This document shows, in pieces, positions 50,005 through 54,063 of a DNA stretch of 64,000 nt (within the stretch, counting starts at the first letter, position 1; each line of letters starts with the position of its first letter). The translations under genes were made by a program, and so were the position numbers. The DNA comes from Rhodobiaceae bacterium (lineage in GTDB: Bacteria; Pseudomonadota; Alphaproteobacteria; Rhizobiales; Tepidamorphaceae): NCBI GenBank assembly GCA_020441995.1, contig JAGRLC010000080.1, forward strand, positions 1 to 64,000, read 5' to 3'. The notes below the pieces were generated by a model, which saw only the letters and a list, made by a program, of their open reading frames with translations, did no database searches and was not told where the DNA came from.

Positions 50005-51219
50005 ATGTGGTTTCTGACTTTCTTTCTGCGCAAGGCGATCAAGAAGGGCCGTCTGGTCATCATCGACCATGATGGAACCCGCCATGAATTCGGTTCCGGT
50101 GAAGACGGGCCGCATGTGACGCTGCACTTCACCGACAGCAGAATCGCCTTCGACATAGCCCGCAACCCCGATCTCGCCGTCGGCGAGGGGTACATGGACG
50201 GGCGCATCGAGTTCGAGGACGGCTCGACCATCCGCGACCTCTTGATGCTTTATGCGGCGAACAAGAAACCGGGCGCCAAGCCGCATGGCTGGTACAACCG
50301 GATGATCTACAATACGCGGTTGCTACTGCGGCCGCTGCATCAGGCAAACCCGCTCGGGCTGGCGGCGAAAAACACGCGCCACCACTATGACATTTCCGGC
50401 GACTTCTACCGGATGTGGCTCGACGAGGAGATGAACTACACCTGCGCCTACTTTCGCGATCCGTCCAACTCGCTGGAGCAGGCGCAGCGCGACAAGCTCG
50501 ACCATGTCGCAGCCAAGCTGCAGTTGAAGCCCGGCATGACCATCGTCGATCTCGGCTGCGGCTGGGGCGCGGCCGCGATCCATTTCGCGAGGAATTACGG
50601 CTGCGACGTCACCGGCATCAATGTCTCGCCGGAGCAGCTTGCCTTCGCCCGCAACCGCGTGAAGGAACTGGGCCTTGAAGACAAGGTGCGCTTCGTCGAG
50701 TGCGATTACCGCGAGGCGGAAGGCCAGTACGACCGCGTTGTTTCCATCGGCCTGATGGAGCATGTCGGCTCGAAGCATTTCCACCAGTTCTTCGGGCAGT
50801 GTTCGAAGCTTATGAAGCAGGACGGGGCCGGGCTGGTGCACGCCATCGGACGCATGGCCCCGCCCGGTGCGACGGGACCTTTCATCCGCAAATACATCTT
50901 TCCCGGCGGCTCCGCGCCTTCGATGTCGGAAGTGTTCCGCGCCACCGAATTCGCGAAGCTCTGGGTGCTCGATTGCGAGATCCTTCGCATGCACTACGCC
51001 TGGACACTGCGGCACTGGCACGAGCGTTTCATGGCGCGGCGCGACGAGGCCGTCGAGATGTTCGATGAGCGTTTCGCGCGGATGTGGGAGTTCTATCTTG
51101 TCGGCGCCGAGTCATGGTTCGAGCATGGTCCCAACATGATCTACCAGTGCGTTATTTCGCACGAGCGCGACGCGCTGCCGATGACCCGTGACTACATGTA
51201 TGAAAACGGCGCTGACTGA
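50005..51219 (+). CDS. Cyclopropane-fatty-acyl-phospholipid synthase-like methyltransferase
   Basis: A 404-residue SAM-dependent enzyme of the CFA synthase family, which adds a methylene bridge to unsaturated lipid chains. The SAM site is IVDLGCGWGAAAIHFARNYG; family motifs are HHYDISGDFYRMWLDEEMNYTCAYF (in parts), ISPEQLAFA-like NVSPEQLAFARNRV, GLMEHVG, YIFPGG and the C-terminal CVISHERDALPMTRDYM. The N-terminal lipid-binding domain is present. ATG 50005 is used; the next upstream in-frame codon is at 49897 and no ribosome-binding site is strong. Close relatives also include other lipid methyltransferases. Confidence 0.85.
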   Translation: MWFLTFFLRKAIKKGRLVIIDHDGTRHEFGSGEDGPHVTLHFTDSRIAFDIARNPDLAVGEGYMDGRIEFEDGSTIRDLLMLYAANKKPGAKPHGWYNRMIYNTRLLLRPLHQANPLGLAAKNTRHHYDISGDFYRMWLDEEMNYTCAYFRDPSNSLEQAQRDKLDHVAAKLQLKPGMTIVDLGCGWGAAAIHFARNYGCDVTGINVSPEQLAFARNRVKELGLEDKVRFVECDYREAEGQYDRVVSIGLMEHVGSKHFHQFFGQCSKLMKQDGAGLVHAIGRMAPPGATGPFIRKYIFPGGSAPSMSEVFRATEFAKLWVLDCEILRMHYAWTLRHWHERFMARRDEAVEMFDERFARMWEFYLVGAESWFEHGPNMIYQCVISHERDALPMTRDYMYENGAD

Positions 51220-51296
51220 CCCGCACCGTACATGATCCAGCCGCTCGAAAATGGACAAAAAAGCGGCGAGGCGTCCGGCCCAAACATTATTTTTCT

Positions 51297-51460
51297 TTAA
51301 TTTGAAAGCGGGCTTTCACGAGCCCATCTTCCTCTTGCGCAGCGGGGAACCGCCGGCGGTCCTGATGGCAAGCAGGGGCGCGACGCGACGGTTCCGGACC
51401 GGATGCGCAAGGGCATGAGCCGGGTGATCCCGGCCGCCAAAATTCAAGAGGACTAAACCC
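51297..51460 (+). repeat. Leader of the first DUF1344 unit (copy 1)
   Basis: Begins TTAATTTGAAAG (51297-51308), then hairpin GGGCT-TTCACG-AGCCC (51310-51325), then GCGACGCGACG at 51380-51390 with CGGACCGG. The same elements recur at the same distances before the second gene (51865-52026). The rest of the gap 51220-51296 shows no gene. Confidence 0.6.
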
Positions 51461-51718
51461 ATGCGTCGTTATCTGATTTCGACAGTCGTTGCAGCGCTTA
51501 TCGCGTCCACATCGGCGGCGCTGGCCGCTCACAAGGCGGATGGTACCGTGCAATCCATCGATAACAGCACAATGATGCTCACCCTCAAGGACGGGCAGCA
51601 GTTCAAGCTGCCGTCGGATTGGCACAACGACATGGTCAAGAAGGGAACGAAGGTGTCGGTGACCTACGAGAAGAATGAAACCGGCAATATGGCCAGCGCG
51701 ATCGTGCCGCAGAACTAG
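51461..51718 (+). CDS. DUF1344 small exported protein (copy 1)
   Basis: An 85-residue periplasmic protein. The signal peptide MRRYLISTVVAALIASTSAA is cut near ALAAH. The mature 60 residues (KADGTVQSIDNSTMMLTLKD, KGTKVSVTYEKNETGN) form a small beta-fold typical of DUF1344. The function is unknown. AAGAGG precedes the ATG and a long leader of about 160 bases lies upstream. The second copy at 52027 shares the signal peptide almost exactly. Confidence 0.85.
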   Translation: MRRYLISTVVAALIASTSAALAAHKADGTVQSIDNSTMMLTLKDGQQFKLPSDWHNDMVKKGTKVSVTYEKNETGNMASAIVPQN

Positions 51719-51777
51719 GGCTCGACCCTTCAGGCTACCCCCGGCGCTTTTACCCCCGAAGTGCCGAAACCCGGAGG

Positions 51778-51807
51778 CGGGCGGAAAGTCGACTTTCCGC
51801 CCGTTTT
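51778..51807 (+). terminator. Terminator of DUF1344 copy 1
   Basis: Perfect 26-base palindrome at 51778-51803 (half-site CGGGCGGAAAGTC) followed by TTTT. The stem is shared with the terminator after copy 2. Confidence 0.85.
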
Positions 51808-51864
51808 CGCGTTCGCCGCCAGCGCGTTCCTGTCTTGGCCGGCTGCCGGCAATATGGACAACAA

Positions 51865-52026
51865 TTAATTTGAAAGGCTGTTTTTCGGCCTCATATGAAG
51901 AAGCGTAACCGGGAAATCGCTGGTCTTCCCAACGGACTTGAGGAGTGCGACGCGACGTTTTCGGACCGGTTACTTGAAGACATTTTCGGGTCCGGCCCGA
52001 TCATGAGAATTCAGGGGGGTGCTCCC
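51865..52026 (+). repeat. Leader of the second DUF1344 unit (copy 2)
   Basis: Starts with the same TTAATTTGAAAG (51865-51876), 162 bases before the start codon against 164 in copy 1. A hairpin with different bases follows (AGGC...GCCT), and GCGACGCGACG with TCGGACCGG is at 51947-51969. A short in-frame reading from 51895 is taken as leader, not protein. Confidence 0.6.
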
Positions 52027-52305
52027 ATGCGCCGCTATCTCATTTCAACCGTTGTTGCAGCACTCATCGCCTCCACCTCTGTGGCTCTGGCCGCTCACAA
52101 GGCCGATGGGACCATTGCGTCCATCGATACAGCCAAGATGGTGTTCACGCTGCAGAACGGTCAGCAGTTCAAGCTTCCCGAAAGTTGGGACGAAAAGGCT
52201 GTCCAGGTGGGCACGAAAGTTACGGTGACCTACGAGAAGAACACGGACGGCAATACGGCCAGCGCGATCGTGCCGCAGAGCTGGAACTTCAATTACCGGG
52301 AATAA
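52027..52305 (+). CDS. DUF1344 small exported protein (copy 2)
   Basis: A 92-residue paralogue of the protein encoded at 51461. The first 27 residues differ at one position (STSVALA for STSAALA). The mature part keeps HKADGT, QQFKLP, GTKVTVTYEKN and ASAIVPQ, and adds a short tail WNFNYRE. ATG 52027 with GGGGGG upstream gives the matching signal peptide; an earlier in-frame ATG at 51895 would add 44 residues unlike copy 1. Confidence 0.85.
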   Translation: MRRYLISTVVAALIASTSVALAAHKADGTIASIDTAKMVFTLQNGQQFKLPESWDEKAVQVGTKVTVTYEKNTDGNTASAIVPQSWNFNYRE

Positions 52306-52312
52306 ATTCCGA

Positions 52313-52345
52313 AGCGGGCGGAAAGGCGACTTTCCGTCCGCTTTG
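52313..52345 (+). terminator. Terminator of DUF1344 copy 2
   Basis: Stem GCGGGCGGAAAG with CTTTCCGTCCGC and a short loop, followed by TTTGTG. It is a diverged copy of the terminator at 51778. Confidence 0.7.
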
Positions 52346-52443
52346 TGCATATGCTGGCTGCCTGGGCAATATGAGAGCAGCCTATGCCGACATCTCCCGC
52401 AACCGGCCAGAATGAACAGACGAAGCGTGAAATCAGGAACGTG

Positions 52444-54063
52444 ATGAACCGGATTCAGCCGTTCGCTTCGGCGGTTCGGCCAGTGGCCGTGTATGTGTTG
52501 TCGGCGCTGGTTTTTTCAGGTGGTGTGGTGTTGCTCATCACCGGAGCGATGCCGCCGGATGGAAGCCGTATCGCTGTTTTGCGCGATGTGCTGCCGCTTC
52601 CCTTTGCCGAAACGTCGCATCTGCTTGCAAGTCTGACCGGCGTGCTGCTCATCGTGCTTGCCAGAGGGCTTGCGTGGCGTGTCGCACTGGCGCGACGCAT
52701 GGCGGTCGCGCTGCTGCTGTCGGGTGCCGCCTTCGCAATGATGAGAAGCCTCGATTGGGAGGCGGCGCTGGCTCTTACGGCCTGTGCCGCGGCGCTGATC
52801 GTGTTCCGCGATGCGTTCTACCGGCATGCGGACTGGCGCAGCTTCCGCCTTTCGCCGCTCTGGCTTGCGGGGCTGACCCTGGTTGTTGCGGCAAGTATCG
52901 CCGTCGGATTCCTTTCATTCAGGGACGTGGCGTACCGCCATGAACTGTGGTGGCAGATCGCCTGGCACGACGGGGCTCCGCGCTTCCTCCGAGCGGCGCT
53001 GGTGGCCGGCGTTGTCGTTGGTATTCTGGTTATTGACAGCTTTCTCAATCGTCCCGGCCAGCCCTCCGGCAAAGGCGATGCCGTTACCGATGAGATCCGG
53101 ACCATTCTTGCCGGCAGCCCGGATACCGCCGCGCAGGTCGCCTTGCTCGCAGACAAGCATTTCCTCGTTTCCGACGACCGTTCCGCCTTCCTGATGTATG
53201 GCGTTTACGGGAGGAGCTGGGTGACGATGGGCGATCCGGTTGGCGACCGGCGGGCCGGACGGGATCTGATCTGGCGGTTTGCGGATATGGTCGACCGGCA
53301 GAACGGGCGCGCGGTCTTTTATGCCCTCAGGCCGGATTTCCTGCCCGAATATATTGATCTTGGTGTGACGCTGGTGAAGACCGGCGAAGTCGGCCGTGTG
53401 GATCTCGGCTCGTTCTCGCTGGAAGGCCGGCATAAGCAGGATCTGCGTTCCGCCCTGCGCCGCATGGAACGCGAGGGTCTTGTGTTCGAGGTGATCGGCA
53501 AGGCCGACGTGCCGGCTGCGATGCCGGCGTTGCAGGCGGTCTCCGATGCCTGGCTGTCGGGGAAGTCGGGGCATGAAAAAGGGTTTTCGCTCGGCCGGTT
53601 CGAGCCGGCCTACATGCGTGAATTCGACTGCGCCGTGATCAGGCAGAACGGCGAAATCGCCGCCTTCGCCAATATCCTGCGCGGCGCCGACCATCATGAA
53701 TTGTCAGTCGACCTGATCCGTTATCGCGACGGGGTATCGAAATCCCTGATGGATGGGCTTTTCGCGCATCTGATCCTCTACGCGAAGGAGGCGGGTTACC
53801 GTTGGTTCAGTCTCGGCGGGTCGCCGCTGGCGGGCCTTTCCGACAATGCGCTCGCTCCCGTATGGAGCCGCCTCGGCGCGTTCGTCTACCGGCACGGCGA
53901 TCATTTCTACAAGTTCGAAGGCCTGAGGGCTTTCAAGGAAAAATTCGATCCCGTCTGGACACCGCAATATGTTGGTGTGCGTGGCAGGATGGGCCTGACC
54001 GCGGCGCTTTTCGACGTCGCAAGTCTCATTTCAGGCGGTGCGGCGCGCATGATCAGGAAATAG
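52444..54063 (+). CDS. MprF/LpiA-like membrane protein with DUF2156 domain (short form)
   Basis: A 539-residue protein with about six N-terminal membrane helices (residues 10-220) and a C-terminal DUF2156 domain (about 235-530), a double GNAT fold that transfers an aminoacyl group to phosphatidylglycerol. Landmarks: FLVSDDRSAFLMYGVYGRSW, WVTMGDPVGD, HKQDLRSALRRMEREGL, FSLGRFEPAYMREFDCAV and WFSLGGSPLAGL. Full MprF/LpiA proteins have about 14 helices and 850 residues, so much of the flippase part is missing. It may make aminoacyl-lipids linked to acid or cationic-peptide tolerance. ATG 52444 (CAGGAACGTG upstream) or ATG 52384. Confidence 0.8.
   Translation: MNRIQPFASAVRPVAVYVLSALVFSGGVVLLITGAMPPDGSRIAVLRDVLPLPFAETSHLLASLTGVLLIVLARGLAWRVALARRMAVALLLSGAAFAMMRSLDWEAALALTACAAALIVFRDAFYRHADWRSFRLSPLWLAGLTLVVAASIAVGFLSFRDVAYRHELWWQIAWHDGAPRFLRAALVAGVVVGILVIDSFLNRPGQPSGKGDAVTDEIRTILAGSPDTAAQVALLADKHFLVSDDRSAFLMYGVYGRSWVTMGDPVGDRRAGRDLIWRFADMVDRQNGRAVFYALRPDFLPEYIDLGVTLVKTGEVGRVDLGSFSLEGRHKQDLRSALRRMEREGLVFEVIGKADVPAAMPALQAVSDAWLSGKSGHEKGFSLGRFEPAYMREFDCAVIRQNGEIAAFANILRGADHHELSVDLIRYRDGVSKSLMDGLFAHLILYAKEAGYRWFSLGGSPLAGLSDNALAPVWSRLGAFVYRHGDHFYKFEGLRAFKEKFDPVWTPQYVGVRGRMGLTAALFDVASLISGGAARMIRK

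Follow-up and report, generated by a model that had tools for sequence, protein, structure and literature searches.

Two small DUF1344 genes lying in tandem in the window (the whole stretch of 64,000 nucleotides analysed here) are each preceded by a leader which, with a probability that we put at about two in three, acts in cis as a structured RNA at the start of the mRNAs for small exported proteins, with a loop that would be read by a factor. The genome that contains the window is 75% complete, and its order is probably Hyphomicrobiales, judging from named plasmid records that carry related DUF1344 genes and from general knowledge of the family. In total 64 leaders were collected, two from the window and 62 from elsewhere, the latter spread over 55 further genomes in the order. 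Their structure covaries and they stand at a steady position just before similar genes, which are two of the marks of a structured cis-acting leader; moreover, the downstream genes show that the leader goes with proteins of more than one family. The result is a well-supported RNA family that seems not to have been recorded before, from the order to which rhizobia and agrobacteria belong; its members are tied to small exported proteins whose function is unknown. A single leader type stands before genes of several unrelated protein families, so its binder would show what they share.

In the window, the leaders belong to two tandem units (51297-51808 and 51865-52345), each comprising a leader, a DUF1344 gene and a terminator-like hairpin (Table 1). 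Such paired units, with equally spaced landmarks, a near-identical signal peptide and related terminators, had been proposed in a sequence-only reading of the same DNA, and each of these points is borne out: the landmark positions and their distances to the ATGs nearly match, 28 of 29 N-terminal residues are identical between the DUF1344 copies, and the terminator-like hairpins are 83% identical. With up to three mismatches, GCGACGCGACGNTTYCGGACCGG matches the window at these two places only, 0 matches being expected from 100 shuffles. For the two genes, DNA identity across the repeat is 76% and protein identity 73%. Identical letters are found at 17 of 38 fourfold sites, against an expectation of 0.32 at saturation; judged by these silent sites, which are near saturation, the genes are old duplicates. 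The two leaders nevertheless share identical runs of 12, 11 and 8 bases. In simulations run at the neutral identity of the fourfold sites, a run as long as 12 arose in 0.6% of cases and two runs of at least 11 bases in 0 of 5000, a frequency that becomes 2% when the neutral identity is raised to 0.60. Thus, with neutral identity near saturation and long runs still kept, the likeness of the leaders is more than chance.

Table 1 Coordinates of the tandem leader-gene units and of the flanking genes in the window
Feature	Position	Strand	Remarks
Cyclopropane fatty acid synthase-like gene	50008-51219		on one side of the DUF1344 pair
TTAATTTGAAAG, copy 1	51297..51308	+	164 nt upstream of ATG 51461; first part fits family consensus TTAAYTTGA; an ATTATTT-type block lies upstream
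TTAATTTGAAAG, copy 2	51865..51876	+	162 nt upstream of ATG 52027; upstream ATTAnnT block not kept
P1 hairpin, copy 1	51310..51325	+	GGGCUU/GAGCCC; predicted fold
P1 hairpin, copy 2	51875..51891	+	AGGCUG/CGGCCU; predicted fold
P2, copy 1	51336..51409	+	predicted fold and covariation
P2 outer helix, copy 1	51336-51341/51404-51409 and 51343-51345/51399-51401	+	
P2 GGA bulge, copy 1	51396-51398	+	inner helix from 51346/51395
P2 loop side CGCCGGC, copy 1	51351-51357	+	faces GCGACGCGACG at 51380-51390
P2, copy 2	51905..51973	+	predicted fold and covariation
P2 outer helix GUAACCGG/CCGGUUAC, copy 2	51905-51912/51966-51973	+	
P2 GGA bulge, copy 2	51963-51965	+	
P2 loop side CGCTGGT, copy 2	51918-51924	+	faces GCGACGCGACG at 51947-51957
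GCGACGCGACG, both copies	51380 and 51947	+	81 and 80 nt upstream of the ATGs
CGGACCGG, both copies	51395 and 51962	+	66 and 65 nt upstream of the ATGs
P3 hairpin, copy 1	51419..51434	+	fold
P3 hairpin, copy 2	51986..52000	+	fold
DUF1344 gene, copy 1	51461..51718	+	85 aa; signal peptide; predicted OB-like barrel
DUF1344 gene, copy 2	52027..52305	+	92 aa; C-terminus longer by WNFNYRE
Terminator-like hairpin, copy 1	51767-51808	+	repeat and folding (repeat/fold coordinates 51767-51807)
Terminator-like hairpin, copy 2	52304-52345	+	repeat and folding (repeat/fold coordinates 52304-52344)
MprF-like gene	52384-54063		on the other side of the DUF1344 pair

The terminator-like hairpins fold much more stably than shuffles (z -4.2 and -5.8); their T runs are short and a consensus terminator scan listed neither. 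Likeness is also seen after the terminators, between 51838-51857 (+) and 52353-52373 (GCCGGCTGCC-GGCAATATG; P 0.002), and from these letters the duplicated unit seems to reach about 20 nt beyond each terminator, with 51838-51857 as its likely right end. At the other end, copy 2 keeps TTAATTTGAAAG and lacks the ATTAnnT block upstream of it (ATGGACAACAA stands there instead), so the duplication junction seems to fall inside that block.

Comparison of the two window leaders gave a first view of their structure. Their pairing ensembles are similar at tolerance 2 (75.2 versus 10.5; 0 of 600 shuffles), in a test where the tolerance means shifts of up to two or three columns and where only diverged letters were permuted, conserved columns being held. 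A column-by-column test of the same two leaders gave a consensus energy P of 0.57 and 3 double changes against 4.3 expected. The pair gave support only when small shifts were allowed, and more sequences were sought.

A covariance model built from the two window leaders (R1) matched one other genome among 397 (G304), with an E value of 0.002 that is about chance level for that many genomes; this match precedes a DUF1344-like gene, and a second copy in G304 lies before a tandem DUF1344-like gene. With a model of four sequences (R2), copies were found in 26 of the 121 genomes of G304's family, all from one genus, and in 7 of the order's 397 genomes, bringing in two further families. A model of 32 sequences (R3) then recovered copies in 26 of 131 genomes, from 24 genera, in one added family, and in 3 of 28 in the other. 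A class-wide search of 385 genomes, with 10 candidates scored per genome, matched only the window's own genome. No copy was detected in most genomes searched, and these absences are soft, since the large searches score few candidates per genome. An exact-pattern scan of the landmarks in genome and viral contig collections gave no match, and a scan of genome contigs for close relatives of the proteins gave none. The landmark pattern with 3 mismatches matched 98 of 297 genomes; as it also matches often when read backwards, those 98 genomes were dropped as background.

The covariation analysis of many leaders that the sequence-only reading had called for supports P2 over the 64 leaders. It was performed on MAFFT alignments, not fitted to structure, of two sets: A8, the 32 leaders used for model R3, and A13, 32 leaders found later and present in no model. 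In A8, 91.2% of the 605 cells of P2 are paired (at most 47% in slid controls), 16 of 19 pairs have changed on both sides, and covariation is 0.435 versus 0.207 after shuffling (0 of 500). In A13 the figures are 92.3% of 509 cells (at most 48% in slid controls), a percentage that is not fully independent as the model that picked out these members scores pairing favourably, 13 of 16 pairs changed on both sides, and covariation of 0.399 versus 0.188 (0 of 500). An unsupervised scan of all column pairs ranked P2 pairs at the top in A8 and as the top five of 4672 in A13. The inner helix of P2 is drawn here as CG/CG, following the A13 scan, in place of an earlier CGC/GCG. Between the helices the letters are almost fixed: the 5' strand reads CGCCGGC, the 3' strand reads GCGACNCGACG, and the GA bulge is kept as well. 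P3 is supported by its folding energy, 27 of 55 leaders having a rank of at most 0.05 (KS P 8e-24). As G-U cells outnumber A-C cells in A8 (45 to 14) and show no excess in A13 (19 to 22), wobble pairs do not prove the sense strand.

Another hairpin, P1, had been singled out in the sequence-only reading for its pairing in both copies. It is present in both predicted folds, with a start offset by 3 nt relative to TTAATTTGAAAG, but across the 64 leaders it is no more stable than shuffles (median rank 0.41; 5 of 64 at rank 0.05 or below; KS P 0.11). P1 was accordingly rejected as a family feature and does not serve as evidence for a selected RNA structure; the broader suggestion that the RNA structure of the leader is under selection stands through the covariation of P2 and the support for P3, not through P1.

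It is highly improbable that the leader is an untranscribed stretch of DNA holding only promoter or operator sites. The strong conservation of the ATTAnnT block before TTAAYTTGA would suit such sites, but pair-by-pair covariation links helix partners as far as about 60-70 nt apart, and DNA sites do not account for this. The upstream block itself has five positions between -11 and -5 that are conserved at 93 to 98% (54 of the 64 leaders counted). As TTAATTTGAAAG prolongs this block and so resembles promoter or operator DNA near a transcript start, it is probably better read as promoter-like DNA, the block ATTAnnT..TTAAYTTGA being a putative promoter or operator. In the window, CATTATTTTTCTTTAATTTG (51286-51308) fits the whole block, the first half of which is missing in copy 2. 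A sigma-70 promoter scan of 50800-52900 found none. Upstream of copy 1, an inverted repeat GCCGCT/AGCGGC (51240-51245 with 51262-51267) is suggestive by eye and was dropped as an element (P 0.08 and 0.06); similar GCC..GGC repeats, not significant as tested, lie upstream of many relatives. Leader 2 also has an in-frame ATG that opens a 136 aa frame (51895-52305) running into the DUF1344 gene. Mismatches between the leaders are spread evenly over the three phases (20, 21 and 18), which indicates no coding signal, and a coding leader was rejected.

In the preferred reading, that of a cis-acting structured leader, the core is P2, one long interrupted hairpin. It opens with an outer helix that covaries and has about 8 pairs, followed by a 3' bulge ending in GA and a short inner helix, beyond which an asymmetric internal loop with the nearly fixed letters CCG / GACNCGA leads to a covarying apical helix. 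On the 3' side of P2, the second hairpin P3 comes next, and then the ribosome-binding site. The leader would be transcribed together with the gene and act in cis. With its fixed letters set between freely covarying helices, the loop looks like a place where a protein or a small molecule binds, and a factor common to these mRNAs may read it and, once bound, would set their translation or stability jointly. Hairpins that simply guard short mRNAs against decay, with no regulation, are an unlikely explanation: the units are indeed short and end in strong hairpins, and P2 and P3 are stable, but neither the nearly fixed CCG/GACNCGA loop nor the GA bulge would be required for stabilisation alone.

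Several ways in which the leader could act were examined by prediction. Masking of the Shine-Dalgarno site found no support, since over 62 of the 64 leaders (two have no recognisable site) it is paired at 0.66 versus 0.69 in shuffles, and more than in shuffles in 29 of 62 (P 0.44). Masking-like pairs are seen in single folds, such as UCCUCU/AGAGGA in the first window leader, GGGGG/CUCCC in the second, and GUCUC-AUG-GAGAC in many relatives. An RNA thermometer, in which warmth would free the ribosome-binding site, is scarcely credible: the structured leader does lie close to this site, but between 20 and 50 C the predicted Shine-Dalgarno pairing hardly changes (0.65 to 0.55 and 0.67 to 0.68), and it is no higher than in shuffles, and temperature sensing was rejected on this prediction. 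A riboswitch, whose loop would itself bind a small molecule or ion while P2 or P3 switches translation, is rather unlikely. It would account for invariant loop letters flanked by covarying helices, and a candidate competing helix CUAAACC/GGUUUGG is paired in 85.7% of cells versus at most 60% when slid; however, this helix is weak against shuffles (median rank 0.40, KS P 0.009), Shine-Dalgarno pairing is not above shuffles, a consensus scan found no terminator inside the leaders, and the targets are exported proteins of unknown function, neither enzymes nor transporters. Masking and temperature sensing are unsupported, the competing helix is weakly supported, and a fixed loop is shared by several kinds of mRNA, so that a site for a shared factor is the simplest account. 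RNA-based control of the gene, as the sequence-only reading had suggested, is still an inference, none of the mechanism tests having been positive.

The leader was compared with known RNA families. At gathering scores, Rfam release 15 found only tRNA in the window and none of its families in 10 relatives, and a permissive scan gave no match near a gathering score. The flg-Rhizobiales (RF01736) and Rhizobiales-2 (RF01723) RNAs, listed in PMC2864571, are likewise conserved structured orphan RNAs of the same order, but their gathering scores are not reached on the window or on the 10 relatives. A Rhizobiales-1 motif is listed in PMC2864571 without an Rfam number. Leaders longer than 100 nt are reported for 1,041 genes of Sinorhizobium meliloti (PMC3616915), so length alone is not unusual. 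Literature retrieved for DUF1344 contained only mentions judged unrelated from the title and the start of the abstract, a query for PF07076 returned none, and listings of papers on RNA motifs of the order held no match to this leader. A large list of candidate RNAs dates from 2017. On these sequence comparisons, which covered the families of Rfam 15, the leader is apparently an undescribed RNA element.

Both window proteins belong to the Pfam family DUF1344 (PF07076), whose function is unknown, with 36.8 and 33.4 bits for a cut-off of 23.1. AlphaFold2 predicted five strands from the two window sequences (mean pLDDT 76.5, the signal region being of low confidence). The fold matches are OB-like barrels, all weak, the best being the RPA core (E 8e-4), followed by cold-shock proteins, SilB, CusF, PilY2 and SilF. 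The window proteins thus resemble the CusF-like copper-binding family (PF11604), also small periplasmic OB-like barrels, with CusF and SilF among the weak fold matches, but at 21.2 and 21.1 they stay under its cut-off of 27. ExtJ of selenite/tellurite reduction operons (NF040942) is the best NCBIfam match (39.8 bits), although this is under the curated cut-off of 52.5, and the neighbours in the window are cyclopropane fatty acid synthase-like and MprF-like.

Outside the window, all 62 copies of the element have their chosen ATG 20-97 nt farther downstream. Because ATGs were picked by a rule that favours exported proteins, random positions served as a control: a strict exported-protein criterion is passed by 56 of the 62 elements versus 8 of 3298 random positions. 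A small RNA acting in trans, with the gene as a mere neighbour or host, is doubtful. Such an RNA would be consistent with a strongly structured 5' region of conserved sequence and with the well-supported P3, but P3 lacks a T run in both copies of the window, the gene always lies within this short distance, and the element accompanies genes for small exported proteins of several families. Indeed, the downstream protein belongs to DUF1344 in 54 of 64 cases, and the ten others match no Pfam family. Both of the weakest RNA matches (L142 and L144) precede non-DUF1344 genes, and dropping them leaves eight such cases. Six of the ten, each 137 to 160 residues long and beginning with MRS, make up a loose family; exported proteins of this type share the leader at L124, L127, L128, L132, L139 and L140. 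Conversely, further DUF1344 relatives that were examined carry no copy of the leader: the element was not found at any of 17 further DUF1344-like loci, of which one lies in the window's own genome, nor at any of 6 plasmid DUF1344 loci (of 16 records), most of which lie behind permease genes and one behind copper genes. In the window's genome, a third and distant DUF1344-like gene (L019, G000:C38:1712-1939) is 33% identical and has no leader.

More tentatively, the cis-acting leader may be the common control module of an unseen regulon, which would adjust the joint output of small periplasmic proteins and maybe sense the state of the envelope or of export through a dedicated loop-binding protein. 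One leader type would then have spread through tandem duplication and through becoming linked to unrelated genes for exported proteins. Tandem leader-gene pairs also occur in G304, G475 and G545. Furthermore, at L139, tandem leaders on the minus strand (1501-1602 and 2150-2254) precede two genes for non-DUF1344 exported proteins in one genome, which is a second kind of leader-gene duplication.
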